A DNA stretch of 64,000 nucleotides, taken from contig NZ_VMDU01000016.1 of assembly GCF_008271465.1 (NCBI RefSeq), positions 1-64,000 of the forward strand, in the 5' to 3' direction. This stretch comes from Tabrizicola flagellatus. GTDB taxonomy: Bacteria; Pseudomonadota; Alphaproteobacteria; Rhodobacterales; Rhodobacteraceae. Each line of letters opens with the position of its first letter. The stretch's first letter is position 1. Positions 11,622 to 63,993 of this stretch are shown here, in pieces. A model generated the notes under the pieces. That model saw only the letters and a program-made list of their open reading frames with translations, was not told the origin of the DNA and ran no database searches. The translations under genes were made by a program, and so were the position numbers.

Positions 11622-11693
11622 GCTCCTCGTTCGCCTTCGGCTCCTCGTCGCGGGGCGGGCCCGAAGCGAGGAGCGACGAAGTCGGACGACGGG
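11622..11693. repeat. Dispersed palindromic element, copy A
   Basis: Inverted repeat with arms of about 26-29 bases: left CCTCGTT-CGCCTTCGGC-TCCTCG, right (reversed) CGTCGTC-CGACTTCGTCG-CTCCTCGC. Each arm holds a mini-hairpin (GCC-TTC-GGC on the left, CGAC-TTC-GTCG on the right). It fills the gap between two convergent genes, where it might also act as a bidirectional terminator. The right arm matches copy B at 25 of 26 bases by eye. Confidence 0.8.
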
Positions 11694-11696
11694 CGG

Positions 11697-12320
11697 TCAG
11701 TCGAGGGGCGCCAGCAGCGCCTTCAGCGCGGCCAGCGGGTTGTCGGCCCCCCAGATTTCCTCGCCCACGGCGAAGAAATCGGTGACGGGGCCGAACTTCG
11801 CCACCAGCTCGGCCGTCAGCGCGCCTTCGGCGATGATCGGGACCTCGATCACCTCTGACCACCATTCGAACAGCTCGAAGGGAGCGCGGCTGCCGTCGCC
11901 GAGGCGCGTCTCGCCGATGGGGCCGAAGCTGCAGTAGTCGGCACCGGCCTCGCCGGCGGTCATGCCGTCATGTTTCGATCTGCCGCAGAAGGCGCCGACG
12001 ATGGCGTCGGGGCCCAGGTCCTTGCGGGCCTTTCGCACGTTCCGCGCCCCGTCCGTCAGGTGCACTCCGTCCAGCCCCAGCCGCTCGGCCAGGATCAGGT
12101 GGTTTTCGATCACCACCGCCACGTCGCGGGCATGCGCCGCCTCGCGCGCCGCATCGGCGGCGCGCATCAGGATGTCTTCGTCCCGCGTTGCCAGCGACAG
12201 CCTCAGGCAGGCGATCTCCACCCCGTCGAGGACTTGGCCAAGGCGATCCGAGAAGGTCTCGGGATCGAAGGTCGGGGGGGTTATCAGGGTGATCTGCGGG
12301 CGGTCGTCTGCGGCCATCAT
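11697..12320 (-). CDS. Thiamine-phosphate synthase-like protein
   Basis: 207-residue TIM-barrel protein of the ThiE/TenI superfamily. Thiamine-phosphate synthase joins HMP-PP to the thiazole phosphate. Family features include ENHLILAERLGLDGVHLTDG in the middle, the phosphate-loop region DYCSFGPIGETRLGDG and the C-terminal FAVGEEIW. It is not near other thiamine genes and no TPP riboswitch was seen, so it may be a ThiE paralogue. Two adjacent start codons (12320, 12317) are possible. Confidence 0.8.
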   Translation of the reverse strand: MMAADDRPQITLITPPTFDPETFSDRLGQVLDGVEIACLRLSLATRDEDILMRAADAAREAAHARDVAVVIENHLILAERLGLDGVHLTDGARNVRKARKDLGPDAIVGAFCGRSKHDGMTAGEAGADYCSFGPIGETRLGDGSRAPFELFEWWSEVIEVPIIAEGALTAELVAKFGPVTDFFAVGEEIWGADNPLAALKALLAPLD

Positions 12321-12450
12321 GGGCTCCGAATTCGTCTTCCGGCCCGTCTATCAGCCTTTCTGCGGCTTGGCTACCTGCCGGGTCGCGCTGTCCGCTTGCC
12401 AGCACCCGGTCCGTCCCCTATCTGGCCGGGACGCCTTCCAGGAGTCCCGC

Positions 12451-13188
12451 ATGATCCCTCCCGTCTTCATCCTCGTCCGGCCCCAGATGGGCGAGAACAT
12501 CGGCGCCGCGGCGCGGGCGATGCTGAACTTCGGGCTGGAGCGGATGCGGGTCGTGGGGCCGCGGGACGGCTGGCCGAACCCGAAGGCGGTGGCGATGGCC
12601 AGCGGGGCGGGGCGGGTGCTGGACCATGCCGGACTGTTTCCAGACCTGCCCGGGGCCATCGCGGACTGCGACTTCGTCTTCGCCACCACCGCTCGGGGGC
12701 GGGAGCTGGTGAAGGAGGTCGTGACCCCGGAGCGCGCGATGGATATGGCCCGCGCGATGGGGGCGGAGGGGAAGCGGGTGGGCGTCCTCTTCGGGCCGGA
12801 ACGGGCGGGGCTGGAGAACGAGGACATCATCCGGGCCAATGCCATCGTCACCGTGCCGGTGAACCCGGATTTCCCTTCGCTGAACCTCGCGCAATGCGTG
12901 CTGCTTCTGGGCTACGAATGGCGGCGGCAGGCGGGGGAGGTGCCGGCCTCGGTCATGGAACTGGCACGGACCGAGTTTGCCAGCCGTGAGGAGGTGGACC
13001 GGCTGGCCGACCATTTCGAGGAGCGGCTGGAGGCGGCGGGGTTCTTCTTTCCGGCCACCAAGGTCGAGGGGATGAAGGCCAACCTGCGGAACATGTGGGG
13101 CCGGCTGGGCCTGACCCGGGCCGAGGTGCAGACCTTCCACGGCATGCTGCGCCAGATCGCCTGGAAGCTGAAGAAGCAGGGCGACTAG
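12451..13188 (+). CDS. SPOUT RNA 2'-O-methyltransferase (TrmJ-like)
   Basis: 245-residue SpoU-family enzyme that methylates ribose 2'-OH from S-adenosylmethionine; TrmJ modifies position 32 of tRNAs. The three SPOUT motifs are visible: N-terminal RPQMGENIGAAARAMLNFG, then GVLFGPERAGLENEDI, and the knot motif FPSLNLAQCVLLLGYE. A TrmJ-like C-terminal helical extension follows. The start at 12451 is placed by homology; open sequence upstream overlaps the divergent thiE-like gene. Confidence 0.88.
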   Translation: MIPPVFILVRPQMGENIGAAARAMLNFGLERMRVVGPRDGWPNPKAVAMASGAGRVLDHAGLFPDLPGAIADCDFVFATTARGRELVKEVVTPERAMDMARAMGAEGKRVGVLFGPERAGLENEDIIRANAIVTVPVNPDFPSLNLAQCVLLLGYEWRRQAGEVPASVMELARTEFASREEVDRLADHFEERLEAAGFFFPATKVEGMKANLRNMWGRLGLTRAEVQTFHGMLRQIAWKLKKQGD

Positions 13189-13393
13189 GCCAGTCTGTCC
13201 ACGGTGGACATTTCCGGATAATCCTGCAAGAGCAATGCCTTGCTCGCGGACATATACCGTTCGTTAACGTGCTTTTTCCGACCCCGACCTGAGGCTGAGG
13301 GCGGGCGATCCCGCCGGGCGCCATGTCGCGGTCTGGTCTGGTGCGGCCTGACGGGCTATGCTTGCCGCATAACAGCAGAAACGGGCAGGCAGC

Positions 13394-14662
13394 ATGGCAC
13401 AGGCAAGGACGACAGAGGGGGTTTCCCGGCGGGGACTGATGCTGACGGGGGCGGCGGCGATGCTGTCGGCCTGCGTGAGCGGCGGGCGGTCGGGCGGCGG
13501 GGGAGGGGGCGGCTACCGCGCGCCCGATCCGGTACCGCGGGCGGTGCCGAACCCGGGCTGGGATGCCTGGGTCGAGGGTTTCAGGGCGCGCGCGGCGGCG
13601 GGCGGGATCAGCCGGGGCACGCTGGACACCGCCTTCCGCGGCGCGGGTTTCCTGCCCGAGGTGATCGAGAAGGACCGCAACCAGACCGAGTTCAAGCGCA
13701 GCCTCGAGGATTACCTGAACATCGCCGCCTCTGACGAGCGCGTGAGCCTTGGCCGCCAGAAATACGCGCAATACGGGGGCGTGCTGTCGGCCATCGAGGC
13801 GCGCTATGGCGTCGAGGGCAACGTGGTCGCGGCGGTCTGGGGGCTGGAAAGCTTCTTCGGGACGCGGCGCGGCAATGTGCCGGTGGTCTCGGCCCTGTCC
13901 ACGCTGGCCTACGAGGGCCGGCGCGGCGCCTTCTTCGAAAGCCAGTTGCTCGCGGCGCTGATGATCCTGCAGGCGGGCGATGTCTCGGCCAGCGCGATGA
14001 CCGGCAGCTGGGCCGGGGCGATGGGGCATACCCAGTTCATCCCGACCAGCTACCTGGCCTATGCGGTGGATTTCAACGGCGACGGGCGACGCGACATCTG
14101 GTCGGAGGATCCGACCGATGCGCTGGCCTCGACCGCGGCCTATCTGGCCAGGTCGGGCTGGACGCGCGGCCTGCCCTGGGGGATGGAAGTCACGCTTCCC
14201 GCGGGGTTCAACACGGGGCTTCTGGGGCGCGGCAAAGGGCAATCGGCGGCCGACTGGCAGGCGCTGGGCGTGCGGTCGGCGGACGGGCGGGCGCTGGCGG
14301 GCGGGTCGATCATCGCGGGCGGCAATGCGGGCGGAGCGCCGTATTTCCTGCTGACGCAGAACTTCGCCACCATCCTGCGCTACAACAACGCGCAGAACTA
14401 CGCGATCGGGGTTGGGCACCTGTCGGACCGGATCCTGGGCCGGGGTCCGGTGCAGGCCTCGTTCGGGCCGGATGCGAACGGGCTGACCAAGGCCGACCGG
14501 CAGGAGTTGCAGCGGCTGCTGACCGCGCGCGGCTTCGACACAGGCGGCACGGACGGGGTGATCGGGGCCAGGACCAGGGCCGCGATCAGCGCCTATCAGG
14601 GCAGCATCGGGGTGCCGGTGACGGGCGAGCCGAGCCTGGAACTGCTGCGCCGGTTGCGCTGA
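13394..14662 (+). CDS. MltB-family lytic murein transglycosylase lipoprotein
   Basis: 422-residue lytic transglycosylase that cleaves peptidoglycan to 1,6-anhydro products. The N-terminus has SRRGLMLTG, a possible twin-arginine motif, running into lipobox LSAC (Cys27), so it is probably a lipidated envelope protein. A Gly-rich linker follows, then the MltB catalytic domain with the acid in VWGLESFFGTRRG (about Glu152) and GAMGHTQFIPTSY. A PG-binding_1 domain occupies about residues 350-422 (DRQELQRLLTARGFDTGGTD). Translation is direct with no internal break. Confidence 0.92.
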   Translation: MAQARTTEGVSRRGLMLTGAAAMLSACVSGGRSGGGGGGGYRAPDPVPRAVPNPGWDAWVEGFRARAAAGGISRGTLDTAFRGAGFLPEVIEKDRNQTEFKRSLEDYLNIAASDERVSLGRQKYAQYGGVLSAIEARYGVEGNVVAAVWGLESFFGTRRGNVPVVSALSTLAYEGRRGAFFESQLLAALMILQAGDVSASAMTGSWAGAMGHTQFIPTSYLAYAVDFNGDGRRDIWSEDPTDALASTAAYLARSGWTRGLPWGMEVTLPAGFNTGLLGRGKGQSAADWQALGVRSADGRALAGGSIIAGGNAGGAPYFLLTQNFATILRYNNAQNYAIGVGHLSDRILGRGPVQASFGPDANGLTKADRQELQRLLTARGFDTGGTDGVIGARTRAAISAYQGSIGVPVTGEPSLELLRRLR

Positions 14663-14687
14663 GGCGGTCCTGGACGGGAAGGGGCGG

Positions 14688-14965
14688 ATGACGCAGCGCG
14701 TCCATGCGATGAGCGTGGCGAAGGTCTATCCGCTCTATCTGGCCAAGGTGGAGCGGACGGGCCGGACGCGGGCCGAGCTGGACGCGGTGATCTTCTGGCT
14801 GACCGCTCGTCGTCCGACTGCGTCGCTCCTCGCTCTGGCGCACCCCGCGACGAGACGCCGGAGGCGATCGAGGAGCCGCTGATGCGCGAGAATCGCAGCC
14901 TGGACAAGCTGGTGAACGGAACCGCCAGGGGCCGGCCGCTGGCGAAGGTGCTGCGACAGGGCTGA
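14688..14965 (+). pseudogene. DUF2200 gene disrupted by a palindromic element
   Basis: The first ~39 residues match a DUF2200 protein (VYPLYLAKVERTGRTRAEL...IFWLT) and the last ~34 match its end (EEPLMRENRSLDKLVNGTA...KVLRQG, stop at 14963-14965). Between them, where the family has roughly 45 residues with a conserved cysteine region, there is only element copy B (14805-14854). The first part runs into the element and stops at 14882; the C-terminal part continues in another frame. The middle of the gene has therefore been lost and replaced by the repeat. DUF2200 function is unknown. Confidence 0.8.
14805..14854. repeat. Dispersed palindromic element, copy B, inside a gene
   Basis: Left arm GCTCGTCGTC-CGACTGCGTCG-CTCCTCGC is nearly complete, with mini-hairpin CGAC-TGC-GTCG. 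The right arm is reduced to GCGACGAG. The core matches the right arm of copy E and, with one difference in 26, the right arm of copy A. It is the only copy found within coding sequence. Confidence 0.8.
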
Positions 14966-14992
14966 GGGCGCGCGCGGGACTGCGGGCGGATG

Positions 14993-15011
14993 CCTCCGGC
15001 GGGAGTTTTTG
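14993..15011 (+). terminator. Short GC hairpin with T-tract
   Basis: CTCC-GGCG-GGAG followed by five T. It lies between the disrupted DUF2200 gene and the convergent olsA. Sequences of the type CCTCCGGCGGGAG plus T are common at gene ends in Rhodobacteraceae, in my recollection. The stem is short, so confidence is moderate. Confidence 0.45.
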
Positions 15012-15038
15012 GAAAAGGGCAAGGGCAGGGGCCTTGCG

Positions 15039-15860
15039 TCAGGCGGCGGCGTGCGGGTGCGAGGTGCGGATCACCCGCTCGCAATGCTGCGACAGCGTCT
15101 TGCGGTCGTCGAAGGCATCTACGGGCACTTCGGGGTGGAAGATGACCTCGACCCGGCCCTGGCGGCGGGTGGCGAGGGTTTTCAAGAGGTGGCTGGCGAA
15201 GTCCATGTCGCCCCACCAGCCGTAATGGCGCGGATCCTCTCCTTCGGGGGCGTGGTAGATCACGGTGACGGGCTGGATGTGCATGGACCGCACCAGCGCC
15301 GGGGCGAAGAAGGCCTGGAAGAGCGTGGACTTGAAGGGCAGGACGCGGATCGCGTCGGTCGAGGTGCCTTCGGGGAAGAAGAGAAGCCGGTGGCCGGCCT
15401 GGAGGCGGGATTCGAAGATCTGCTGCTGTTTCTTCGCCTCGGTCCCCTTGCGGGCGATGAACACGGTGCCGGTGGCACGGGCGAGCCAGCCGATACCGGG
15501 CCAGTCGGCGACCTCGGCCTTGGCGACGAAATAGACGGTCTGGGCGGCGTTCAGCACGAAGATGTCGAGCCAGGAGGAATGGTTGGCGACGATGGCTCCG
15601 GTCCGGGTCATCGGGCGGCCGTGGAGCGTGAGCGGCAGGCGCAGGATGCGCAGGGCACCGCGGCAGACGGCCTTGGTGATGTGGGGGGTCACGGGGCGGG
15701 CCTGGCCGCAGAGCGGCCATTCCACGAGGCGCACGAGGAGGAGGACGACAAGGCCGCCATAGGTGAGCGCGCCGAGCAGGGTGCCGCGCCAGAGGACGCG
15801 GAGCCAGCCCGCGGGGGTGATGCGCAGCGGCGGCGGGGCGGCGGTGTGCCAGTCGCTCAT
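15039..15860 (-). CDS. olsA: 1-acyl-glycerol-3-phosphate / lyso-ornithine lipid acyltransferase
   Basis: 273-residue PlsC-family membrane acyltransferase. A hydrophobic segment (about 27-45) precedes the catalytic HX4D motif NHSSWLD (His94, Asp99) and the acceptor-site motif FFPEGTS. Its start overlaps the stop of the adjacent olsB-like gene (ATGA). That coupling suggests it is OlsA, adding the second, ester-linked fatty acid to lyso-ornithine lipid. A role in phosphatidic acid synthesis is possible as well. Confidence 0.85.
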   Translation of the reverse strand: MSDWHTAAPPPLRITPAGWLRVLWRGTLLGALTYGGLVVLLLVRLVEWPLCGQARPVTPHITKAVCRGALRILRLPLTLHGRPMTRTGAIVANHSSWLDIFVLNAAQTVYFVAKAEVADWPGIGWLARATGTVFIARKGTEAKKQQQIFESRLQAGHRLLFFPEGTSTDAIRVLPFKSTLFQAFFAPALVRSMHIQPVTVIYHAPEGEDPRHYGWWGDMDFASHLLKTLATRRQGRVEVIFHPEVPVDAFDDRKTLSQHCERVIRTSHPHAAA

Positions 15861-16636
15861 CCGCCGGCCTTGCGGACGTAGAATTCGCGGTGGCGGGCCG
15901 ACATCTGGCCCGTGTCCATCACCAGGCAGACATCGGTGGTGTTGAAGTCGCGGTCGATCCAGGCGCCGTCGCCGACGAAACCGCCGAGCCGGAGATAGGC
16001 CTTGATCAGCGCGGGCGTCGCGGCCATGGCGGCGCGGCGGTCGAGGCTGGCGGGGGGGACCAGGTCCATCTCCTGCCGGTGCGGGGGGAGCGCCCGGACC
16101 CGCATCTCGGGCGGGGCGAGATGGTGGTGATGGAGGTAGGAAAGCGGCTGGGCCAGGGCGGGGATGTCGGTGCCGTGGAAGGAGGCGGCGCCGAACAGGA
16201 CCTCGATCCCGCGGTCGAGCACATAGTCGGCCAGCCCGTTCCACAGGTGGAACATCGCCGTGCCGCCGCGGTGGTCGGCATGGACGCAGGAGCGGCCGAG
16301 TTCGAGGAGATGCCGGCCCGAGGCGAGGAGGGGCGTCAGGTCGAACTCGGACTCGGAATAGAAGCGGCCGGCACTGGCGCGGCGTTCACCGGGCATGATG
16401 CGGTAGGCGCCGATGACATGGGTCAGGGTGGCAGGGTCGATGCGGCGGTCGACCAGGATCAGGTGGTCGAAATGCGGGTCGAACTCGTCGCGCTCGAGCC
16501 CGGCCGCATGGTCCACCAGCGGGCCGTCGCCGCCAAGTTCGCGCACGAAGACCTGGTAGCGCAGGGCCTGCGCTGCTGCCAGATCCTCGGGCGTGGTCGC
16601 AAGCCGGACGGCGTAGGGAGACTCTGCGGCAGACAT
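15857..16636 (-). CDS. olsB: L-ornithine N-alpha-acyltransferase OlsB
   Basis: 259-residue GNAT-fold (hemolysin-like acyltransferase) protein that transfers a 3-hydroxyacyl chain from ACP to ornithine, the first step of the phosphate-free ornithine lipids. Diagnostic blocks are ALRYQVFVRELG at the N-terminus, LELGRSCVHADHRGG in the middle and LIKAYLRLGGFVGDGAW near the end. Immediately upstream of and overlapping olsA. Ornithine lipids often rise under phosphate limitation, but no Pho box was seen. Confidence 0.9.
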   Translation of the reverse strand: MSAAESPYAVRLATTPEDLAAAQALRYQVFVRELGGDGPLVDHAAGLERDEFDPHFDHLILVDRRIDPATLTHVIGAYRIMPGERRASAGRFYSESEFDLTPLLASGRHLLELGRSCVHADHRGGTAMFHLWNGLADYVLDRGIEVLFGAASFHGTDIPALAQPLSYLHHHHLAPPEMRVRALPPHRQEMDLVPPASLDRRAAMAATPALIKAYLRLGGFVGDGAWIDRDFNTTDVCLVMDTGQMSARHREFYVRKAGG

Positions 16637-16756
16637 CGACCCGGTTCTGGACTTCCAACGCGAGTGACTTAGCCAGCGGGCGCCCGTTTTGCAACCGTTT
16701 GCCGGACGGCGGGCGGGCCTGTCAATTCCCGGTTGAGTTTCACCGGCGGATTCGCA

Positions 16757-16939
16757 CTATGGGTGATCAGTTCCCGCCACCGGCAGAAGGAAGACCCGCT
16801 TGCTGTCGATCACGACCTTTCCGCCATGTTCGAAGTTCACTGTTACCTTGCTGTCGATGTTCGACTGTACCTGACCCAGACCCCAGTCTTCCCGGTCCGG
16901 GTGGCGCACCAGCATTCCCGGTTCGAGAAGTCCCGCCAT
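16757..16939 (-). CDS. Small DUF3553 protein
   Basis: 60-residue protein matching DUF3553 over its whole length: LEPGMLVRHPDREDWGLGQV followed by VNFEHGGKVVID. Related modules occur at the end of some UvrD-type helicases and may bind nucleic acid or protein; this free-standing form has no known function. It diverges from chpT, with only 23 bases between the two start codons, so the promoters must overlap the genes. Confidence 0.8.
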   Translation of the reverse strand: MAGLLEPGMLVRHPDREDWGLGQVQSNIDSKVTVNFEHGGKVVIDSKRVFLLPVAGTDHP

Positions 16940-16962
16940 ATCCTGTCCTTTCGCCCGGTTCG

Positions 16963-17562
16963 ATGATGCAAGACAAGCCCGACCTCGCCGCCCTGATCGC
17001 CTCGCGCATCTGCCATGACCTTATCAGCCCGATCGGGGCGATAGGCAACGGGGTGGAGCTTCTGGCGATGGAGCCGGGGGGCGCGCGGCCGGAAATGGCG
17101 CTGATCTCGGAAAGCGTGGCCAATGCCAATGCGCGGATCCGGTTCTTCCGGGTCTGTTTTGGCCAGGCCGGCAGCGACCAGCGGATCGCGCGGTCCGAAG
17201 TGGTGGCGATCCTGGGCGACCTGGGGCGCGGGGGGCGGATCAGCTATGCCTGGACCAGCCCCGGCGACCTGCCGCGCCGCGAGGTGCGGCTTGCCTTCCT
17301 GCTCTTGCAATGCCTGGAAAGCGCGCTGGCCTATGGCGGGCGGATCAACGTCACCCGGTCCGAGACCGGCTGGTCGGTCCTGGCCGAGGCGCCGCGGCTG
17401 AAGGTCGATCCCGCGCTGTGGGAGGTGCTGACCGAGCCGCGCGCACCGGCCGAGATCGGCGCGAACCAGGTGCATTTCGCGCTGGTGCCAGAGGAACTGG
17501 CCCGGCAGGGCCGGCGCCTTGTCACCGAGATCGGCGAAACGACGATCCGGCTGACGTTCTAG
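16963..17562 (+). CDS. chpT: Histidine phosphotransferase ChpT
   Basis: 199-residue phosphotransfer protein that in alphaproteobacteria passes phosphate from CckA to CtrA and CpdR. The phospho-accepting histidine lies in RICHDLISPIGAIGNGVELL, and the C-terminal part is a degenerate ATPase-like fold without nucleotide-binding motifs. Two adjacent ATGs (16963, 16966) can start it. Its presence supports the alphaproteobacterial assignment; in Rhodobacterales this pathway mainly controls motility, gene transfer agent and quorum-linked traits. Confidence 0.9.
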   Translation: MMQDKPDLAALIASRICHDLISPIGAIGNGVELLAMEPGGARPEMALISESVANANARIRFFRVCFGQAGSDQRIARSEVVAILGDLGRGGRISYAWTSPGDLPRREVRLAFLLLQCLESALAYGGRINVTRSETGWSVLAEAPRLKVDPALWEVLTEPRAPAEIGANQVHFALVPEELARQGRRLVTEIGETTIRLTF

Positions 17563-17607
17563 GCTGCAATCCGAATTTGCCGTCGCCCGCCGCAGGAGCG
17601 CCGGGCC

Positions 17608-18483
17608 TCAAGCCCCGTCCGCGCCGGTGTCGTCTTCGGGCGTCGGCGGCGACAGGTCCTCGAACACCCGGTCGATGCGGTCCATCTGCTTGCCCGCCCG
17701 CATCATGCCGATCCGGCGGAACAGCCCGCGCGGGTCGCTGTTCAGGCGTTGCAACAGGTGGCAGGCCAGCGGCCCGACGACGGGGGCCTTGCGCGCCTCG
17801 TTCCAGATCTGGGCCAGAAGGTTGATGTCGAGCCCGCCGGTGGCCAGGTTGAAATGCGGCATGTCGAGCGGCAGGCTCCGGCCCCGGATGCGGCCGATCG
17901 GGAAGGGGGTCGCGGCGTCGAGGCCGGAGTGCAGGCGTTCGTATTCGTAGAGCTTCATCAGCGAAAACAGCACGTTGATCGACAGGCCCACGCGGCGCTG
18001 GGCCTCGGTCTCGCCATGGTCGCCGAAGGTGATGGCGGACGATATCAGCCAGCGCCCCGGCAGGTGCGGCATCAAGGCCGGCCCCGCCTCGGCCCAGATG
18101 CGGCGGAAGAGGGCGGGGGCATGGGCCGGATACCGCTGCTTGCGCAGATGCGCGATCAGGATGGCGTTGACGGCCGCGAGTTCCGGCTTGCCTGCCAGTT
18201 CCAACCGCATCTGGTGCAGCTTGCGGGCATGCAGCGTCTGCGAGCCTTCCAGCGGCGGCAGGTCGTGCGGGATCCGCGCGGCCAGCAGCGACGCGAGGTC
18301 GAGGTCGGCGGGCGGGAACCAGTCGCGCGCCGCGAGCTTCAGCCGGCGCCGGCGCTGGCCCCAGATCCCGATCAGGCTGTCCGGGGCATCCGGGTAGGTT
18401 TCAACCCCGGTCTCCGGATCGGGCTCGGTCGGATCGGGTTCTGGCGGATCGGGTTCCGGCGGATCGAGCTCGGGGGTCGTCAT
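17608..18483 (-). CDS. Conserved hypothetical protein with acidic Pro-Glu-Asp repeats
   Basis: 291 residues that I do not recognise. The N-terminus carries about five tandem repeats of a PEPDP-type unit (residues ~5-24), followed by a mixed alpha-helical body with no clear catalytic motif, signal peptide or membrane segment. The acidic C-terminus ends TPEDDTGADGA. The repeats are also visible as 15-base DNA repeats at about 18420-18470. It is convergent with chpT and downstream of prfC in the same direction, 74 bases from its start. A cytoplasmic location is inferred only from the lack of export signals. Confidence 0.7.
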   Translation of the reverse strand: MTTPELDPPEPDPPEPDPTEPDPETGVETYPDAPDSLIGIWGQRRRRLKLAARDWFPPADLDLASLLAARIPHDLPPLEGSQTLHARKLHQMRLELAGKPELAAVNAILIAHLRKQRYPAHAPALFRRIWAEAGPALMPHLPGRWLISSAITFGDHGETEAQRRVGLSINVLFSLMKLYEYERLHSGLDAATPFPIGRIRGRSLPLDMPHFNLATGGLDINLLAQIWNEARKAPVVGPLACHLLQRLNSDPRGLFRRIGMMRAGKQMDRIDRVFEDLSPPTPEDDTGADGA

Positions 18484-18557
18484 GCGGTCAGGGGCCTCCG
18501 GCGCCGCGAGGGTGGGCGGAGGCTAGGGCGCGGGGGCCGGGCGGTCAATGCCCTGGC

Positions 18558-20153: not shown

Positions 20154-20670
20154 GGGCGCGACATATCCGCCGCGCCGGCCCAGTGCAAGGATCGGCTCGG
20201 TCCGGGGGCAGGCGGATCACCGGGACGCCCCGGGGGCAGCAGCGGGCATCCGTTTCGCGACAGGTCGAGCCGGCAATCGCCGCAGCCTTGCATTCGACTG
20301 AGGCCGAAAGGATGCCGCGCGGATACTCGAGAGGGAAGGGGACGGAACCCTCCGGCGCGGAAGGAAGGATCCTGAGCCACGGACAGACCGCATTGCCGCC
20401 GATGCCGCACAAGAAGGCCGGGAGCATCCGATCCAGCGCGGTGTCGCCGCACACCTTGCTTTCCGGTGCCGGAGGCCGAGGCCGGGAGCAGGGCAAGACA
20501 GAGGGCATGGCGCGGAGTCACCGCTGCACGAGGAAGCGATCGTCGAAATGGAGGCTGGACCAGGTCAAGCCGTTTCGGCAAGACTGGAGCGCGACATGTT
20601 CTTGCCGAGTTTGCGGGGAAACCCGACCGTTCTGCTGCCAGCGAATTCTGTCCCTACTCATAGGCATTGC
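20154..20670. other. Intergenic stretch upstream of prfC and the ATP-grasp gene
   Basis: About 515 bases between divergent genes; it should contain both promoters. A minus-strand frame (20125-20508) could encode a cysteine-rich protein of 127 residues, but it overlaps the prfC start and resembles nothing I know. Two alternative in-frame starts for the ATP-grasp gene (20548, 20596) also fall here. No repeat or RNA gene seen. Confidence 0.4.
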
Positions 20671-21729: not shown

Positions 21730-21838
21730 GCCGGCGGGTTGCCCGGGGGCAGGTCCGGCCCATCGGGATCCCGGCGACGAGGACGCGCTTGTGCGCCGGG
21801 CACGGCCTGATAGGCTGGGCCGCGACAGGAGGACTGCG

Positions 21839-31578: not shown

Positions 31579-31646
31579 GCTCGTCGTTCGACTTCGTCTC
31601 CTCCTCGCGGGGGGGGGGGCGAGGAGAAGCGCAGCGCACGACGAGC
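31579..31646. repeat. Dispersed palindromic element, copy C
   Basis: Left arm GCTCGTCGTT-CGACTTCGTC-TCCTCCTCGC, right arm (reversed) GCTCGTCGTG-CGCTGCGC-TTCTCCTCGC. The loop is a run of 11 G (31609-31619), a place where sequencing or replication slippage is likely. It lies upstream of surE and downstream of iolB, in a 226-base gap that otherwise shows only possible promoter sequence. Confidence 0.8.
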
Positions 31647-53658: not shown

Positions 53659-53667
53659 GGGCCCGCG

Positions 53668-53982: not shown

Positions 53983-53998
53983 CCCTTCCCCCGGCATC

Positions 53999-54063
53999 GC
54001 TCGTCGATGCCTTCGGCACTCCTCGCTGGTGCCCCCGACGAGAAGGCGAAGCCGAACGAGGAG
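53999..54063. repeat. Dispersed palindromic element, copy D
   Basis: Left arm CTCGTCGA-TGCCTTCGGCA-CTCCTCGC; right arm reversed CTCCTCGTTC-GGCTTCGCC-TTCTCGTC. The mini-hairpins are TGCC-TTC-GGCA and GGC-TTC-GCC, different in sequence from copies A-C but still self-complementary. It lies between the ferredoxin and the phosphatase gene. Confidence 0.75.
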
Positions 54064-54129
54064 GGCAGCTTGTCTTTCGCCGGTGATGTGGTCCGGCTAG
54101 CCTGCCACGGCGAGCCAGAGGATGCGCCC

Positions 54130-54918: not shown

Positions 54919-54989
54919 AACATCTTGAGGCCGCCCGGCACTTCCCCTAACCTGCCGGGGCGCGAACCGGGCGGGAAGGACGGGATCAC

Positions 54990-56963: not shown

Positions 56964-56965
56964 GG

Positions 56966-57031
56966 GCCTCGTCGTTCGACTGTGTCTCCTCCCCGGTGGT
57001 CCGCGAGGAGCGACGCAGTCGACGACGAGCC
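56966..57031. repeat. Dispersed palindromic element, copy E
   Basis: Left arm GCCTCGTCGTT-CGACTGTGTC-TCCTCCC; right arm reversed GGCTCGTCGT-CGACTGCGTCG-CTCCTCG. The right arm has the mini-hairpin CGAC-TGC-GTCG also present in copy B. It starts three bases after the fusion gene stop. Confidence 0.82.
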
Positions 57032-57092
57032 TTTGCGCGGCCGACCGATGCGCGGCATTGAGGCGCGTCGCAAAACAGGCGATAAGCGCAGG

Positions 57093-57545
57093 ATGTCCGA
57101 CGATCCCCCTTCCTTCCGCCAGACCCGCCGCTCGCTGCCGATCGCCCTGCTGCGGGCGCGGGAAACCGTGATGGGGCCCCTGCGGCAGATGCTGGCCACA
57201 TCGGGCATCAACGAACAGAAATGGCGCGTGCTGCGCGTGCTTCAGGAACGCGGGCCGCTGGAACTCAGCCAGGTCGCGGCAGAAGCGGTGCTGCTTCTGT
57301 CCAGCCTGACCCGGATGATCGGGCCGATGGTCGCGGAAGGGCTGATCACCCGCACCACCCCGCCGGAGGACCGCCGCAAGTCGATCGTCGCGATCACCCC
57401 GGCCGGGCTGGCCTTCGTCCAGGCCCATGCCGCGCAAAGCGCCGCGATCCTCGGCCGGATCGAGGCCGAGTTCGGCCATGACCGGCTGGAGCAGCTTCTC
57501 GACTTGCTGGAAGAGCTGCAGAAGCTCGACCTGCGCGGTCCATGA
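57093..57545 (+). CDS. MarR-family regulator (HpaR-like)
   Basis: 150-residue MarR regulator with an N-terminal RRSLPIALLRARETVM and winged helix (ELSQVAAEAVLLLSSLTRMI, wing PPEDRRKSIVAITPAG), the arrangement of HpaR, the repressor of homoprotocatechuate degradation. It follows the PLP/cyclase fusion gene in the same direction; no hpa genes are in the window. An aromatic ligand such as anthranilate or kynurenine is an inference from that neighbour. Confidence 0.85.
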   Translation: MSDDPPSFRQTRRSLPIALLRARETVMGPLRQMLATSGINEQKWRVLRVLQERGPLELSQVAAEAVLLLSSLTRMIGPMVAEGLITRTTPPEDRRKSIVAITPAGLAFVQAHAAQSAAILGRIEAEFGHDRLEQLLDLLEELQKLDLRGP

Positions 57546-57639
57546 CGGAAACGGCGCGCGAAACGGGCAAAACCGGTCTGCGTCCGCCCCGGATTGCGCT
57601 ATCTCTTCCCGCCACGTTCCCAGCCCGGAGCCTTGGCCG

Positions 57640-58884
57640 ATGATCCCGGACCCCGCCGCCTTCCTGCGCCAGCTTTTCGACCGCGCGGTCGAGGTGGCCG
57701 ACCCGATGCGCTCGCTCGCGGGCTTCCTGCCGGAGAAGCCGGGGGGCCGCGTGGTCGTGGTCGGCGCGGGCAAGGCCAGCGCCCGGATGGCCGAGGCGGT
57801 CGAGGCCGTCTGGGGCCCCTGCGAGGGGCTGGTCATCACCCGTTACGGCTATGCGCGCCCCTGTCGCGGGATCGAGATCGTCGAGGCCGCGCATCCCGTG
57901 CCCGATGCGGCCGGCGTCGCGGCCACCGCCCGGATGCTCGAACTCCTGCGCGGGGTGGGAGAGGACGACTTCGTCCTGGCGCTGATCTCGGGCGGGGCCT
58001 CGGCGCTGCTCTGCGCCCCGGTCGAGGGGCTGTCGCTGGCCGAAAAGCAGGCGGTCAACGCGGCACTTCTGGCCTCGGGCGCGCCGATTTCGGCGATGAA
58101 CACGGTGCGCAAGCACCTCAGCCGCGTGAAGGGCGGCCAGCTGGCCGCGGCGGCTCACCCGGCGCGGATGCTTGCCCTGATGATCTCGGACGTGCCGGGG
58201 GACGATCCGGCCCTGATCGGCTCGGGTCCCACGGTCGGCGATGCCAGCACCCCCGACGAGGCGTGCGCGATCCTCGACCGCTGGCAGATCGCGCTTCCGC
58301 CTGCCGCGCATGCCGCGCTGGGCCGGTCGGGCGTGGTGCCGCCGGGGGACGCACGCCTGTCGCGGGTCGAGAACGTCATCTATGCGGCCCCCGCCCAGTC
58401 GCTGGCCGCCGCTGCCGAACTGGCCGCGCCGCTTGCCGAGGTCCGCAGCCTGGGCGACCGGCTGGAGGGCGAGGCACGCGAGGTCGCCCGCGACCAGGCC
58501 CGGTTTGCCCGTGACATAGCAGCGGGCCTGCGCCCCGGCGACCGGCCGGTGCTGCTTCTCTCCGGGGGCGAGTTGACCGTGACCCGGCAGGGCGACGGGG
58601 TGGGCGGGCCGAACGCGGAATTCTGCCTGGCGCTGGCGCTGGCACTGGAGGGCCACCCGCGGATCCATGCGCTGGCCTGCGACACGGACGGTGTGGACGG
58701 CGCCGCCGAGGTGGCGGGCGCGGTGATCGGGCCGGACACGCTGGCCACGCCCGGCGCGGCCGAGGCGCTGGCCCGGAACGATGCCCACGGCTATTTCGCC
58801 CGCGCGGGGGCGCAGGTCGTCACCGGCCCGACCCTGACCAACGTCAACGACTTCCGCGCCATCCTGATCCTGCCGCCGGCTTGA
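57640..58884 (+). CDS. gckA: Glycerate 2-kinase (GckA/MOFRL family)
   Basis: 414-residue kinase making 2-phosphoglycerate from glycerate in the serine cycle or glycolate/tartrate metabolism. N-terminal domain with VVVGAGKASARMAEAVE and LISGGASALLCAP; C-terminal MOFRL domain with LLSGGELTVT and DTDGVDGAAEVAGA. Start at 57640 is set by homology; no strong ribosome binding site. Confidence 0.92.
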   Translation: MIPDPAAFLRQLFDRAVEVADPMRSLAGFLPEKPGGRVVVVGAGKASARMAEAVEAVWGPCEGLVITRYGYARPCRGIEIVEAAHPVPDAAGVAATARMLELLRGVGEDDFVLALISGGASALLCAPVEGLSLAEKQAVNAALLASGAPISAMNTVRKHLSRVKGGQLAAAAHPARMLALMISDVPGDDPALIGSGPTVGDASTPDEACAILDRWQIALPPAAHAALGRSGVVPPGDARLSRVENVIYAAPAQSLAAAAELAAPLAEVRSLGDRLEGEAREVARDQARFARDIAAGLRPGDRPVLLLSGGELTVTRQGDGVGGPNAEFCLALALALEGHPRIHALACDTDGVDGAAEVAGAVIGPDTLATPGAAEALARNDAHGYFARAGAQVVTGPTLTNVNDFRAILILPPA

Positions 58885-59301
58885 GGCCCGCTCCCCGGCG
58901 TCGTCGAGCGTGGCTTCGCGTCCGCTGCCTTGTGCCGCCTGCCCGTGCGGTCCCGGCCCGGCGCCCGCGGCCGGCAGAACCCCGCGCCGGCCTGATCGCC
59001 TGCCGGCATAACCTTGCCCAGTCCGTAAGCGGGCACGACAAGACACTTGATTCAAAGCGATTTCAGAGCGAGCCTTGCCCCTGGTGTCGTGATGAAGGCC
59101 TGTGGACCGAGTGGATCGAACGGCAGACAGCGCCAGACGTTTTGCCCTGTCGCGGGCAAGTGGCCGGGCGCATCTGATGCCTGAAGTCACGGTCTCGCTG
59201 CGGTCCTGCCCCAATGTGGCCTTTTCATGGGCGCAAGGACAGGGTCGCCTTGTGGTGCGTGGTCCCGTTTGTGGGCGAGTTGACGTGATGCTGCCGATCG
59301 G
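58885..59301. other. Intergenic stretch before the GMC oxidoreductase gene
   Basis: About 415 bases with no supported gene. Bases ~58897-58930 (CGTCGTCGAGCGTGGCTTCGC and what follows) resemble one decayed arm of the palindromic family, with no clear partner arm. The rest should include the promoter for the GMC gene, but I see no clear -35/-10 pair. Confidence 0.4.
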
Positions 59302-60960
59302 ATGCGAAAGTTCGCGGGATCTGTCCTGATGCCGATGCGATCCTGGATTCCTTCGGTCATCTCCGGGCAGGCCGCAGCCAGGCCCGCGCCGGGTCAGGAA
59401 TGGGATGTAATCGTGATCGGAACCGGCATCGGTGGCGGTGTCGCCGGTCGCCGGCTGGCCGAAAGCGGCCTGTCGGTCCTGTTCATCGAGAAAGGCCCCC
59501 TCGGCTATCGCACGGAGAGCCAGAACCTTCGCTCCGACATGGATGATTACGCCGCACGGCAGATGCGGGGCTTCTGGCCGACCAGGATCGAGGCGCGTCT
59601 GGATGGTGGTCGGCCGCAACGCTTCTTCGCGCCGATCGGCAGCGGGGTCGGCGGAACCTCGGTGTTCTACGCCGCCGCGGCCGAGCGGCCCGAGCGGCAC
59701 GATCTTGAAAGCACCGACAGCATGCCGCATCCGACAGGGGGCTGGCCGGTCGGCTATGATGCCTTCGCGCCCTATTTCGATCAGGCGGCAGAGCTCCTGT
59801 CGGTCCGGGGCGAGGCCGATCCCGCCTCGGGCCTGCCTGCGCCGCCCTACGCCCCGCCGCCGCTGAGCAGTGCCGAGGCTGCGCTCTTTGAGGACCTGCG
59901 CGGGCTCGGCCTGCATCCCTACCGGGCGCACGAGGCCTTGCGCCGGGTGCCGGGCTGTTCGGACTGCCTTGGTCGCAAGTGCCCCTTGCCCTGCAAGATG
60001 GACGGCCGCTCGGCCGGGATCGAACCGGCGATGGAAACCGGACGCGCGACGCTGATGGCCAACGCATCGGTGGAGGAACTCATCGAAAGCGGTGGGCGGA
60101 TCAGCGAGGTCCGGGTGCGCCGATCGGGGCACGACATGGTGCTGTCGGCCCCGATCATCGTGCTGGCCGCGGGCGCGCTGCATTCGCCGCGGATCCTGCT
60201 GGGGTCGACGGGCACCCATGCGGCGGGCTGTGCCAACTCCAGCGGCTGGGTTGGGCGCGGATTGATGTTCCACCTCAGCGAGATGGTCGCGCTCTGGCCC
60301 CGGCGCGGCCGGCCTGCCGTGGGCGCGACCCGCAGTCTGGCGTTCCGCGATCTGTACGCGGTTGGGGGCAAGCGCCTTGGACTGGTCCAGTCTATGGGGG
60401 TATCGGCGGACGCCGGGCAGATTGCCGCCTATCTCAAGGCCCTGATCGCCCGGTCCCGTCTGTCGCAGGTGCCCGGGATCGGTCGGGTGGCGACGCTGGT
60501 GGCGCGGGTGGGGGGCTTGCTTTTCGGCAAGGCCACGGTGCTGGTCGGCGTCCTGGAGGACCTGCCCTATTACGAGAACCGGGTGCTGCCGCATCCCGAC
60601 GACCCCGAGGTGCCGCTGATCGAATACCGCCTGCACGACGAGCTTCTGGAGCGGCGGGCTTTTTTCCGCCGGGTGATCCGCAGGACACTCGGCCGGTGGC
60701 GGACGCTGCTGCTGGGCATCGGGCCGGATCTCAACTTCGGCCATCCCTGCGGCACCCTGCGCTTCGGGTCCGATCCGAAGACCTCGGTCCTGGATGCCAA
60801 TTGCAAGGCGCATGACCTCGACAATCTCTACGTCGCTGATGCGTCCTTCCTGCCCACTTCGATGGGGGTCAACCCCAGCCTGACGATCGCTGCCAACGCC
60901 CTGCGGGTCGCCGACGTGATCGCGGCTCGCCTGAAAGCCGAAAGGCGGAAAGCGGTTTGA
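59302..60960 (+). CDS. GMC-type FAD-dependent oxidoreductase
   Basis: 552 residues. FAD-binding VIVIGTGIGGGVAGRRLAES near the N-terminus, GSGVGGTSVFYAA, and the catalytic histidine region near GIGPDLNFGHPCGTLRFG; the C-terminus VADASFLPTSMGVNPSLTIA is typical of GMC alcohol/sugar oxidoreductases. A cysteine cluster CSDCLGRKCPLPC (about 223-235) may bind metal, an unusual addition. The start is uncertain (59302 or 59329); neither has a good ribosome binding site. The stop overlaps the next start (TGATG), so it is coupled to an SDR. Confidence 0.85.
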   Translation: MRKFAGSVLMPMRSWIPSVISGQAAARPAPGQEWDVIVIGTGIGGGVAGRRLAESGLSVLFIEKGPLGYRTESQNLRSDMDDYAARQMRGFWPTRIEARLDGGRPQRFFAPIGSGVGGTSVFYAAAAERPERHDLESTDSMPHPTGGWPVGYDAFAPYFDQAAELLSVRGEADPASGLPAPPYAPPPLSSAEAALFEDLRGLGLHPYRAHEALRRVPGCSDCLGRKCPLPCKMDGRSAGIEPAMETGRATLMANASVEELIESGGRISEVRVRRSGHDMVLSAPIIVLAAGALHSPRILLGSTGTHAAGCANSSGWVGRGLMFHLSEMVALWPRRGRPAVGATRSLAFRDLYAVGGKRLGLVQSMGVSADAGQIAAYLKALIARSRLSQVPGIGRVATLVARVGGLLFGKATVLVGVLEDLPYYENRVLPHPDDPEVPLIEYRLHDELLERRAFFRRVIRRTLGRWRTLLLGIGPDLNFGHPCGTLRFGSDPKTSVLDANCKAHDLDNLYVADASFLPTSMGVNPSLTIAANALRVADVIAARLKAERRKAV

Positions 60961-61721
60961 TGCAGGACAGTGCGATCAGGCCGGATGCGCCCGACGCGGT
61001 GGCGGTGGTCACCGGTGCGGGCAGCGAACTGGGGCGGGCCCTTACCGCAACGCTTGCGTTGCGCGGCGTTGCGGTTGCCGGGATATCCGCCACGCCCTAT
61101 CAGGCCGAGCATGCCGCGGTCCTGCCCGTCGTCGCCGATGTCCGCGACCCCGTCGCGGTGGCCGAGGCCTTCCAGACCATCCGCGAAACTCTGGGAGCGC
61201 CGACGATCCTGATCAACGGGGCCGAGGTCTATCCGCACCGCGACATCCTGGAAGAGACCCCGGACAGCTTCATGGACACGGTGCAGCTCAACCTCGGCGG
61301 GGCCTTCAACTGCTGCCACGCTGTCCTGCCGCAGATGGTGGCGTCGGGACGAGGCCGGATCATAAACATCGTGACCTTCGCCGATGTCCGGCCCGCGCCT
61401 CTGGCGGCCGGATATTCGGTCTCGAAGGGTGCGCTGCGCATCCTGACCCGGGCGCTGGTCGCCGATCTGGGCGACCGCTTTCCCGGCATCGTCATCAACG
61501 ACTGGGTGCCCGGAAGCCACACGCCGCGCAAGGGCATCCCCGACGGGGTGGACCCGCGTCTTGCTGCGGAGTGGGGCGCCAATCTGGCGCTTCTGGACGA
61601 CCGGTCGATCAATGGCCTCGTCTTTCTCCAGGACCGCGAGCACCTGCCGCCGCGCTCGCTGCGCGGCCGGGTCAAGGACCGCGTGCTGGGCCGGGGCAGG
61701 GTGCGGGTGCGCCTGAAGTAG
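60960..61721 (+). CDS. Short-chain dehydrogenase/reductase
   Basis: 253-residue SDR: coenzyme loop VVTGAGSELGRALTATLA, NGAEV in place of NAG, and the catalytic pair in AAGYSVSKGALRI. The nucleotide-binding part is slightly shortened and the C-terminus has a long basic tail (RVKDRVLGRGRVRVRLK) with no standard substrate loop. Coupled to the GMC gene by overlap, so the two may act on the same alcohol or sugar. Confidence 0.85.
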   Translation: MQDSAIRPDAPDAVAVVTGAGSELGRALTATLALRGVAVAGISATPYQAEHAAVLPVVADVRDPVAVAEAFQTIRETLGAPTILINGAEVYPHRDILEETPDSFMDTVQLNLGGAFNCCHAVLPQMVASGRGRIINIVTFADVRPAPLAAGYSVSKGALRILTRALVADLGDRFPGIVINDWVPGSHTPRKGIPDGVDPRLAAEWGANLALLDDRSINGLVFLQDREHLPPRSLRGRVKDRVLGRGRVRVRLK

Positions 61722-61799
61722 CGCCTTCGACAGGACCGGGAGCGATTGCAGAACGGCGCCCATCGCGCTATCCCGGTCCCGACCGCGACAGGGGGGAAC

Positions 61800-62729
61800 A
61801 TGAGCCGCGCATTCGTCTTTCCGGGGCAGGGCGCCCAGACCATCGGCATGGGCAAGGCACTCGCCGAGGCCTATCCGGCCGCGAAGGCCGTGTTCGACGA
61901 GGTGGATGCGGCGCTGGGCGAGAAGCTGTCCACCCTGATCTGGGAAGGCGACATCGCCGAGCTGACCCTGACGCAGAACGCCCAGCCCGCGCTGATGGCC
62001 ACCTCGATCGCCGCGCTCCGCGCGCTGGAGTCCGAGGGCTTCGGCATCGACCGGGCCAGTTTCGTCGCCGGGCACAGCCTCGGCGAGTATTCCGCCCTCT
62101 GCGCGGCGGGATCGCTGACCCTGTCGGACACCGCGCGCCTGCTGCGCATCCGCGGCCGGGCGATGCAGGAGGCGGTGCCGGTCGGCGTCGGTGCCATGGC
62201 GGCACTTCTCGGCCTCGACTTCGAGACCGCGACCGCCGTCGCGCAGGAGGCCGCCCAGGGCGAGGTCTGCCAGGCCGCCAACGACAACGATCCGGCGCAG
62301 GTCGTGGTGTCCGGTCACAAGGGCGCCGTCGAACGCGCCGTGGAAATCGCCAAGGCGAGAGGCGCGAAACGCGCGCTGATCCTGCCCGTCTCCGCCCCCT
62401 TCCACTGCGCGCTGATGCAGCCCGCCGCCCGAGTGATGGCCGAGGCGCTGGCGGCCGTCCCGATCCTGAAGCCCGCCGTGCCGGTCGTGGTCAACGTCCG
62501 CGCCGAGGCGGTGACGGAGCCCGATCGGATCATGGACCTGCTGGTTGCCCAGGTCACCGGATCGGTCCGCTGGCGCGAGAGCGTGCTGTGGATGGAGACC
62601 GCCGGCGTCACCGAGTTCTGGGAGATCGGCGCCGGCAAGGCCCTGTCGGGGATGATCAAGCGCATCGCCTCCGGCGCCACCACCCGGGCCATCGGCACGC
62701 CCGAAGACATCGTCGCCCTCAAGGCGTGA
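61800..62729 (+). CDS. fabD: Malonyl-CoA:ACP transacylase
   Basis: 309 residues; supplies malonyl-ACP for fatty acid synthesis. FVFPGQGAQTIGMGKAL at the start, nucleophile in AGHSLGEYSAL, and PFHCALMQPA carrying the catalytic His. The start follows GGGGGGAAC; homology begins at once. Heads fabD-fabG, 11 bases apart. Confidence 0.96.
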   Translation: MSRAFVFPGQGAQTIGMGKALAEAYPAAKAVFDEVDAALGEKLSTLIWEGDIAELTLTQNAQPALMATSIAALRALESEGFGIDRASFVAGHSLGEYSALCAAGSLTLSDTARLLRIRGRAMQEAVPVGVGAMAALLGLDFETATAVAQEAAQGEVCQAANDNDPAQVVVSGHKGAVERAVEIAKARGAKRALILPVSAPFHCALMQPAARVMAEALAAVPILKPAVPVVVNVRAEAVTEPDRIMDLLVAQVTGSVRWRESVLWMETAGVTEFWEIGAGKALSGMIKRIASGATTRAIGTPEDIVALKA

Positions 62730-62740
62730 AGGAGAGTCCC

Positions 62741-63478
62741 ATGTTTGATCTGACCGGAAAGACCGCCCTTGTCACCGGGGCTTCGGGCGGCATCGGCGCC
62801 GAAATCGCCCGCGCTCTCCACGCCGCCGGGGCCACCCTGGGCCTGTCGGGCACGCGGGTCGAGCCGCTGGAGGCCCTGGCCGCCGAACTCGGCAGCCGCG
62901 CGCATGTCCTGCCCTGCAACCTGTCGAACCCCGAAGAGGTCGAGGGTCTGGTGAAACGCGCCGCCGAGGCGATGGGCGCGGTGGACATCCTGGTAAACAA
63001 CGCGGGCATCACCCGCGACGGCCTCGTCATGCGCATGTCGGACGAGGACTGGCAGGCCGTGATCGACGTGAACCTGACCGCGACCTTCCGGCTCTGCCGG
63101 GCGGCGGTGCGCGGCATGATGAAGGCGCGCTGGGGCCGGATCGTCAACATCTCCTCGGTCGTCGGCACAACGGGCAACGCGGGCCAGGTGAACTATGCCG
63201 CCTCCAAGGCGGGCATGGTGGGCCTGTCCAAGTCGCTTGCCGCAGAGGTCGCAAGCCGCGGCATCACCGTGAACTGCGTGGCGCCCGGCTTCATCGAGAC
63301 GGCGATGACCGACAAGCTGAACGAGGCGCAGCGCAGCGCGATCCTGGCTTCGGTGCCAGCGGGCCGGATGGGCACGCCGGAAGAGATCGCGGCGGCGGTC
63401 CTCTACCTTGCCTCGCCGGAAGCGGCCTACGTTACTGGGGCGACGCTGCACGTCAACGGCGGCATGGCCATGGTCTGA
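62741..63478 (+). CDS. fabG: 3-oxoacyl-ACP reductase FabG
   Basis: 245-residue NADPH-dependent SDR reducing 3-oxoacyl-ACP. TGASGGIGAEIARALH, NNAGITRDGLVMRMSDEDW, catalytic Ser in ISSVVGTTGNAGQ and YAASKAGMVG; ends with the family's ATLHVNGGMAMV. AAGGAGAG precedes the start. Part of fabD-fabG-acpP. Confidence 0.97.
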   Translation: MFDLTGKTALVTGASGGIGAEIARALHAAGATLGLSGTRVEPLEALAAELGSRAHVLPCNLSNPEEVEGLVKRAAEAMGAVDILVNNAGITRDGLVMRMSDEDWQAVIDVNLTATFRLCRAAVRGMMKARWGRIVNISSVVGTTGNAGQVNYAASKAGMVGLSKSLAAEVASRGITVNCVAPGFIETAMTDKLNEAQRSAILASVPAGRMGTPEEIAAAVLYLASPEAAYVTGATLHVNGGMAMV

Positions 63479-63509
63479 AACCGAAGCCGCGCAAGTCAGG
63501 TTAAAGCGT

Positions 63510-63538
63510 TTGCCATGCGCCCCGACCCTTGCTATAGG
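63510..63538 (+). promoter_or_regulatory. Probable sigma-70 promoter for acpP
   Basis: TTGCCA at 63510-63515, a 17-base spacer and TATAGG at 63533-63538, about 80 bases before the acpP start. A separate strong promoter for acpP fits the very high levels of ACP that cells make. Confidence 0.6.
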
Positions 63539-63617
63539 CGCGCAGGATTGAGGCCCGGGCGACCGGGTGGAACGGCAAAGGCCGGGAGTGAGCCCAGGCC
63601 AAGATAGAGGAACGGAC

Positions 63618-63851
63618 ATGAGCGACATCGCTGATCGCGTGAAGAAGATCGTCGTCGAGCATCTGGGCGTCGAAGCCGACAAGGTGACGGAATCGGCCTC
63701 GTTCATCGACGACCTGGGTGCGGACTCGCTCGACACGGTCGAGCTGGTCATGGCCTTCGAGGAAGAGTTCGGCATCGAGATCCCGGACGACGCCGCCGAG
63801 ACCATCCAGACCTTCGGCGACGCGGTGAAGTTCATCTCGGAAGCCGCCTGA
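63618..63851 (+). CDS. acpP: Acyl carrier protein
   Basis: 77-residue ACP carrying the growing acyl chain. The phosphopantetheine serine is in [20 protein letters not shown], and the acidic helices are standard. GAGGAACGGAC supplies the ribosome binding site; an in-frame upstream TTG-type extension is not used. OlsB encoded at 15857-16636 would use its 3-hydroxyacyl form as donor. Confidence 0.97.
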
Positions 63852-63876
63852 GCGATTTCGTCCTTCGCGGGACAGC

Positions 63877-63903
63877 GGGGCACCCTTCGGGGTGCCTTTT
63901 GCT
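63877..63903 (+). terminator. Rho-independent terminator after acpP
   Basis: GGCACCC-TTCG-GGGTGCC stem (63879-63896) followed at once by TTTTGCTTT. A strong intrinsic terminator 28 bases after the acpP stop. Confidence 0.88.
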
Positions 63904-63927
63904 TTGGGGCTTGGCCCTTGCCCGCCG

Positions 63928-63993
63928 CTCGTCGAGCACTTCGTGCACTCCTCGCCGATGCCCTCCCGACGAGTGCACGAAGTGCTCGAGGAG
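63928..63993. repeat. Dispersed palindromic element, copy F
   Basis: Left arm CTCGTCGA-GCACTTCGTGC-ACTCCTCGC; right arm reversed CTCCTCGA-GCACTTCGTGC-ACTCGTC. The mini-hairpin is GCAC-TTC-GTGC, a third distinct stem sequence in the family, identical in both arms of this copy. It lies right after the acpP terminator. Confidence 0.82.

Follow-up and report, generated by a model that had tools for sequence, protein, structure and literature searches.

Introduction

Several described groups of repetitive extragenic palindromic sequences (REPs) bear comparison with the repeat family reported here; their descriptions, here and below, are those given in the portions of the cited papers that were at hand. 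A survey from 2013 reported CGTC-tagged repeats in alpha-Proteobacteria that apparently lack a transposase, with stems of 8-9 bp beginning with AT, loops of 4-5 nt and a CCA-like tail (PMC3733652). By contrast, REPINs, which are inverted REP doublets, carry a GTAG tag and go with the transposase TnpA_REP, also called RAYT (REP-associated tyrosine transposase) (PMC3116915, PMC8266576), and the GTAG tag is also found in the REPs and bacterial interspersed mosaic elements (BIMEs) of Escherichia coli (PMC8266576, PMC12306157). REPs that lack a transposase still pose an open question. Here we describe a family of dimeric palindromes that came to light in a 64,000-nt stretch of DNA from Tabrizicola flagellatus (Rhodobacteraceae; RefSeq assembly GCF_008271465.1, contig NZ_VMDU01000016.1, positions 1 to 64,000, forward strand), hereafter called the window. 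A sequence-only reading of the window had proposed six dispersed, REPIN-like copies with compensated mini-hairpins. We found this proposal to be partly supported: the family is REPIN-like in layout, but its mobilisation by RAYT is not supported. It is a REP-type family with an arm structure unlike that of the REP families compared, and it is set apart from them by their published descriptions. No description of the repeat was found among the matches listed in a search of the open-licence PMC literature on Rhodobacteraceae and Tabrizicola.

A dispersed family of inverted, unequal arms

To build a covariance model (R1), 36 copies were taken from the source genome, which comprises 3.6 Mb in 42 contigs; they include five of the window copies. 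In the window it matched six places, at E values from 6e-18 to 1e-10, and its next-best match lay at E=0.08. Because five of the six copies had trained the model, these matches are partly built in; the gap between the sixth and the seventh match is not. Inspection of the sequence and the model agreed on all six of the copies originally proposed, but the one placed at 14805-14854 had been cut too short and really spans 14806-14875. In the source genome, the arm pattern CTCSTCG-N(6-16)-CTCSTCG gave 230 matches and its reversed-pattern control gave 10; overlapping variable-gap matches are included, so that certain arms enter the count twice. This excess disposes of the concern that the copies might be no more frequent than chance.

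A detailed sample was taken from 52 stretches around about 100 of the 230 places (contigs C1-C4) and from the window, and in it our finder recognised 47 paired elements. The pyrimidine-rich arm came first, in inverted orientation and on either strand, in all 33 close pairs of exact arms. Arms are of two kinds, 28 nt and 26-27 nt long, and the two kinds are preferentially combined: with one odd-length element omitted, 36 of 46 dimers were mixed, six long-long and four short-short, while about 23 mixed dimers would be expected at random (p=7e-5). Identical arms are frequently shared by copies (75 distinct ones among 94, the commonest occurring eight times), and all 47 spacers differ from each other. 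The layout first described for the window, two REP-like units of about 26 nt in inverted orientation, each consisting of a 7-mer, a mini-hairpin and a 7-mer, with a short spacer between the arms, is thus correct, and can now be refined to two unequal arm kinds and spacers that all differ.

Pairing covaries within the arm

An arm can be written CTC-N-TCG...CTC-N'-TCG, where N and N' were complementary in 92 of 94 arms (CG 46, GC 44, TA 1, AT 1), the other two being CC. On the purine strand the same arm reads C-GA-N-GA-G, a stem of 3-4 bp with mostly a GNA triloop, and C-GA-N'-GA-G. The triloop was GNA in 87 of 95 source-genome arm matches (GAA 58, GCA 25, GGA 4). To these counts we added a separate scan that allowed any base at N, kept the other 7-mer letters exact and demanded a mini-hairpin. 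With these settings the N:N' rule held in 91/95 matches in the source genome, 35/40 at orthologous junctions of relatives, 13/13 in other stretches of relatives, 20/25 in other genera and 5/5 at glycerate-kinase loci. Among scan matches without a mini-hairpin, it was kept in just 4 of 17.

The alignments point the same way. The within-arm central pairs were complementary in 36/36 and 35/36 copies of alignment A3, and in 31/34 and 33/34 (one being G-T) of the elements in alignment A5, which comprises 34 elements from several genera and uses all four Watson-Crick types. Between the arms of A5, central bases paired in the nested sense in 35% of cases, compared to a shuffled mean of 42%, and in the crossed sense in 54%, compared to a shuffled mean of 45% (20 of 500 shuffles reach 54%). 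The mini-stems behave likewise: pair 12:18 of the arm-A stem was paired in 36/36 copies with 16 two-sided changes, and no excess covariation was found when arm-to-arm pairing of the mini-stems was looked for. At the other 24 seven-mer positions, 851 of 864 cells agreed with the consensus, a figure that is partly due to construction because 7-mers with more than one substitution did not pass the finder. The compensated hairpins of the sequence-only reading are therefore real within arms but show no excess between them, and the covariation itself is real, as stem pair 12:18 shows.

Two other structures were considered and abandoned. An early four-way-junction fold with nested cross-arm stems lost to within-arm pairing on the nested A5 figures. 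Crossed, pseudoknot-like pairing appeared convincing in the source genome, where 93.8% of cells were paired and no shuffle out of 500 reached that level, an effect of the one G-centred and one C-centred 7-mer in every arm; for the central bases alone and with other genera included, it fell to the 54% given above, far below within-arm pairing.

When the same junction was compared by eye across species, stems were found to differ and nevertheless to pair. Junction L041 carries CACC/GGTG, CAAC/GTTG or CGCC/GGCG; L052 and L082 carry GGAC/GTCC versus TGAC/GTCA; L070 carries CGAC/GTCG versus GGAC/GTCC; and L033 carries GGC/GCC versus GAC/GTC. Such differences may also come from independent insertion at one junction, and at L058 a relative (G012, L301) shows both arm kinds in reversed order.

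RAYT genes and the family within the genus

The comparison with REPINs called for a search for a TnpA_REP gene. The Pfam profile Y1_Tnp (PF01797) proved to be a false-negative test, with no match in the source genome, none over the cut-off in the 32 genus genomes and two below it. A sub-cut-off match of 160 aa, when followed, pointed to NCBIfam NF047646 (E 4e-56) as well as to the TnpA_REP entry PDB 4er8, and RAYTs were then found in 28 of the 32 genus genomes, source genome included. From a list of about 49 RAYT loci, 36 distinct ones were examined; their flanks were between less than 0.1 kb and 3 kb long, according to how near the contig ended. GTAG hairpins were present at 33 of the 36 loci and the T. 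flagellatus repeat family at none. Since an even spread would give 2.4, this indicates no association rather than avoidance. Conversely, the four genomes without a RAYT match, three of them 99-100% complete, gave 141 (G001), 81 (G007), 75 (G015) and 28 (G026) matches to a model named R2. GTAG or CTAC occurred in none of the 94 arms and in none of the 47 elements' surroundings within 6 nt; either was found inside two of the 47 elements (in the spacer or at its edge, not in the arms) and within 14 nt outside one. Of the REPIN analogy, then, the layout, the dispersal and the turnover stand, but RAYT mobilisation is not supported. In genome G000, two RAYT genes with GTAG hairpins nearby, of two sequence types, lie at C3:256862-258097 (L224, L242) and C4:98800-99710 (L243).

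Distribution among genomes

The dispersal expected by the sequence-only reading was confirmed by the covariance models. R2 matched in 32/32 genus genomes with 3 to at least 151 matches each, counts for which about 150 candidates were scored and in which both strands of one copy may count. In the family Rhodobacteraceae, R1 matched 11 of 295 genomes, five of them at E<1e-12 (G000, G001, G266, G367, G209). Of these, G266, G367 and G209 lie beyond the genus, and nine of the 11 copies shown had the 28+26 layout. The simple arm pattern also exceeds its control in some other genera (107 versus 7 in G056, 51 versus 2 in G036), and these two genomes are not among the 11 matched by R1. Across the class, R2 matched 3 of 385 genomes including the source, the other two weakly. 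Absences in these searches of more than 40 genomes are soft, because stricter filters applied and few candidates were scored per genome. One 66-nt copy compared by blastn to plasmid and phage collections gave no match, and neither did the arm pattern against viral contigs. At 80 glycerate-kinase loci the finder detected no dimers, and the N:N' scan detected five single arm-like matches.

Copies at gene ends and their turnover

Based on simple codon-model gene calls, 25 of the 47 elements lie between convergent genes, 17 between tandem and two between divergent ones, two inside a predicted gene and one at an edge. A facing stop codon was found within 15 nt of 39 of 44 scored copies, compared to 8.8% expected from intergenic positions of the window, and two stop codons within 15 nt of 19 of 44, compared to 0.8%; the gap between two convergent genes is often filled by a copy. 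This is familiar from other REPs: the 2013 survey presents two genomes in which most convergent REPs lie less than 20 bp from each of the two 3' ends (PMC3733652). A terminator scan of 44-64 kb, which contains three copies, gave seven terminator-like matches against 8.2 expected from shuffles, and none of the three copies is itself terminator-like (a G+C-rich hairpin with a T-tract). The sole match near a copy is a separate hairpin at 63877-63898, just before the last copy of the window, so this 3' end carries both hairpin kinds. Within that region, the suggestion that the copies are unrelated intrinsic terminators found no backing. An Rfam scan of the window gave only two tRNAs above the gathering score and left the family unmatched.

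In the window, the first copy (11623-11693, + strand) consists of a 28-nt arm, a 16-nt spacer and a 27-nt arm, and the ends of the convergent genes are 8 and 3 nt away. The second (14806-14875, - strand) sits within, and interrupts, a reading frame which we take to be DUF2200-like and which the gene calls missed. The third (31580-31645, + strand) lies in the intergenic space of tandem - strand genes, 70 and 90 nt away. The fourth (54000-54063, - strand) and the fifth (56968-57029, + strand) are preceded by predicted gene ends at 17 and 4 nt, respectively, and the sixth (63928-63993, - strand), which was outside the R1 training set, is downstream of a small predicted gene at 63618-63851. The frame at 54990-56963 matches an aminotransferase class V domain and a putative cyclase, with a sub-cut-off kynureninase match; it is possibly a fusion of two enzymes of tryptophan breakdown. 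Another dispersed repeat of the window, at 14984-15035 and GGATGCCTCCGGCGGGAGTTTTTGGAAAAGGGCAAGGG-like, is unrelated to the family; this stretch matches many places across the genus.

Occupied and empty sites, a comparison that the sequence-only reading had proposed, could both be found in relatives. Twelve convergent sites were sought in seven relatives, and 66 of 84 orthologues were found; 60 were fetched and six, weak or at contig ends, were omitted. The 60 junctions were occupied in 29 cases (model match at E<=0.01), empty in 10 and otherwise in 21. At the empty junctions the aligned gene ends are -4 to 9 nt apart, and at L263, L264 and L300 a stop codon is off its aligned place. The 21 others are made up of copies that have degenerated or are present by half, hairpins of another kind, wider gaps and cases where the right-hand gene was not found. 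Half copies at L268, where the arm is identical to that of the source genome, and at L304 suggest that the element can be lost. Other hairpin-like sequences replace the element at L271, L273, L288, L289, L291, L292 and L308, for example AAGACTTTTCGAAAAGTCTT followed by CAAAATCCTTCGAAGGATTTTG. Syntenic Tabrizicola thermarum (L096) is shorter at the sites of the copies at 54000 and 56968 and has no counterpart of either. For the site at 11623, the finder reported copies in L170, L173 and L181 among the 20 relatives compared. Across the site of the second copy, the two flanks could be aligned in 12 of the 20 relatives fetched; these relatives have about 128 nt there that are missing from the source genome, which has 55 nt instead. 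Judged from the aligned sequences, this copy is a clear gain that interrupts a frame. Its last 15 nt are identical to what relative G006 (L177) has there, which suggests, from a single case, that it may have landed through terminal homology.

Discussion

Our findings are consistent with a REP-type family of dimeric palindromes in which the single arm is the unit of structural selection, and whose purine hairpin would be read by a putative single-stranded DNA factor. We give this reading about an even chance. Steps of the type 5'-GA-3'/3'-AG-5' form sheared pairs, and if the GA steps of the arms pair in tandem in this manner, the purine strand should fold as a stable single-stranded DNA hairpin. 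Such a hairpin could be recognised by a putative factor that processes single-stranded DNA and either spreads the copies or maintains them. Copies may then survive at 3' ends either because they are harmless there or because they aid the ending or protection of transcripts. DNA mini-hairpins with GNA loops are unusually stable (PMC4686876). A more specific form of the idea, which we put forward only tentatively, is that the arms constitute a single-strand DNA code, composed of a GNA-capped hairpin, two tandem sheared G.A steps and one free Watson-Crick pair, and that a putative enzyme spreads inverted heterodimers into gene-end junctions alongside the ordinary RAYT/GTAG system.

Several observations weigh against the single-arm reading. 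The N:N' rule is broken in 4/95 source-genome, 5/40 orthologous-junction and 5/25 other-genus matches, and the copies are related, so that covariation counts are not independent events. The purine strand is just slightly the more stable in ViennaRNA calculations (its energy is the lower one for 87 of 106 arms under RNA parameters and for 84 under DNA parameters, the arms having been preselected to obey the N:N' rule). Whole dimers mostly favour a long arm-to-arm hairpin, the four-way fold being better in 7/36 with RNA and 8/36 with DNA parameters, in a comparison restricted to these two folds. Across the genus, the family's copy number shows a weak correlation with that of one GTAG subtype (Spearman 0.44, p=0.013); a mobiliser common to both could account for it. 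Finally, no enzyme could be linked to the family, the survey having covered RAYT loci.

What, then, are the alternatives to a dedicated single-strand factor? A resident TnpA_REP could move the repeats in trans, recognising these arms as well as GTAG repeats, as in a classical REPIN. The presence of RAYT genes in most genus genomes, the inverted orientation of doublets whose arms are conserved and whose spacers vary, and the weak correlation with GTAG copy number would all be accounted for; since the family is missing from all 36 RAYT loci, most of which have GTAG hairpins, is present with 28-141 matches in four genomes without a RAYT match and has 94 arms without GTAG or CTAC, we consider this unlikely. 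The alternative that selection acts on RNA deserves more weight, and we regard it as possible while leaning against it. The element would here be a bidirectional transcript-end hairpin, an exonuclease barrier or terminator, spread by copying or gene conversion. The 25 convergent copies, the 19 of 44 close to two stop codons, the other hairpin-forming sequences that substitute for the element at the seven junctions named above and the lower computed energy of the arm-to-arm hairpin are what such a function would lead one to expect. It would also lead one to expect a cross-dimer stem that covaries between the arms, of which there is no sign, and the element is absent from 10 of the 60 orthologous junctions. 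Closeness to stop codons is moreover a general trait of REPs (PMC3733652) and may just reflect tolerated insertion.

The two remaining explanations dispense with a selected fold. A DNA-binding protein that reads double-stranded CTCNTCG direct repeats, with the hairpin incidental, would explain the nearly invariant 7-mers, but it leaves both the N:N' complementarity and the compensated mini-stems without a cause, and we find it very improbable. Repair of quasi-palindromes templated by a hairpin would yield complementary stems without any selection, and mini-stems complementary in many versions are what it would produce. The same process would, however, also mend the T.C/G.A mismatches in the 7-mers, and these are kept in 851 of 864 cells (a figure partly owed to the finder), which makes a mutational artefact scarcely credible.

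The arm rule, with its kept GA steps, freely varying complementary N:N' and GNA loop, picks out the strand to be folded and thereby offers a clean mutational test of single-stranded DNA recognition. A transposase-unlinked family and a RAYT/GTAG family occur here in the same genomes, of which some have RAYT and others do not, so that the two should be experimentally separable.

Compared to known systems, the family is close to the CGTC-tagged REPs of alpha-Proteobacteria (PMC3733652). Both consist of short palindromes in head-to-head dimers, often heterodimers, and both mostly occupy convergent or tandem gene spaces less than 20 bp from 3' ends. The CGTC REPs apparently lack an associated transposase, and for the present family no association with RAYT was found at the loci examined. 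The letters CGTC or CCTC are contained in the 7-mers CTCGTCG and CTCCTCG. Unlike the CGTC REPs, the T. flagellatus family has stems of 3-4 bp, loops of 3 nt, a 7-mer at both arm ends and G.A steps on the purine strand. With REPINs (PMC3116915, PMC8266576) it has in common the inverted doublet, conserved arms, a less conserved spacer and a single-strand fold; it differs in that it carries no GTAG tag, is absent at the examined RAYT loci and occurs without RAYT, while the RAYTs have separate GTAG repeats of their own. The REPs and BIMEs of E. coli (PMC8266576, PMC12306157) likewise have stems in which mismatches are conserved (A12A13-G26C27 in the y REP), combine two kinds of REP in mosaics and have a large share of copies near a termination codon, but they have another sequence, the GTAG tag and longer units. 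The mini-hairpins with GNA loops, such as d(GCGAAGC), share the GNA triloop closed by G-C pairs (PMC4686876); there the structure is an isolated oligonucleotide, whereas in the T. flagellatus family the GNA loop caps a genomic repeat.

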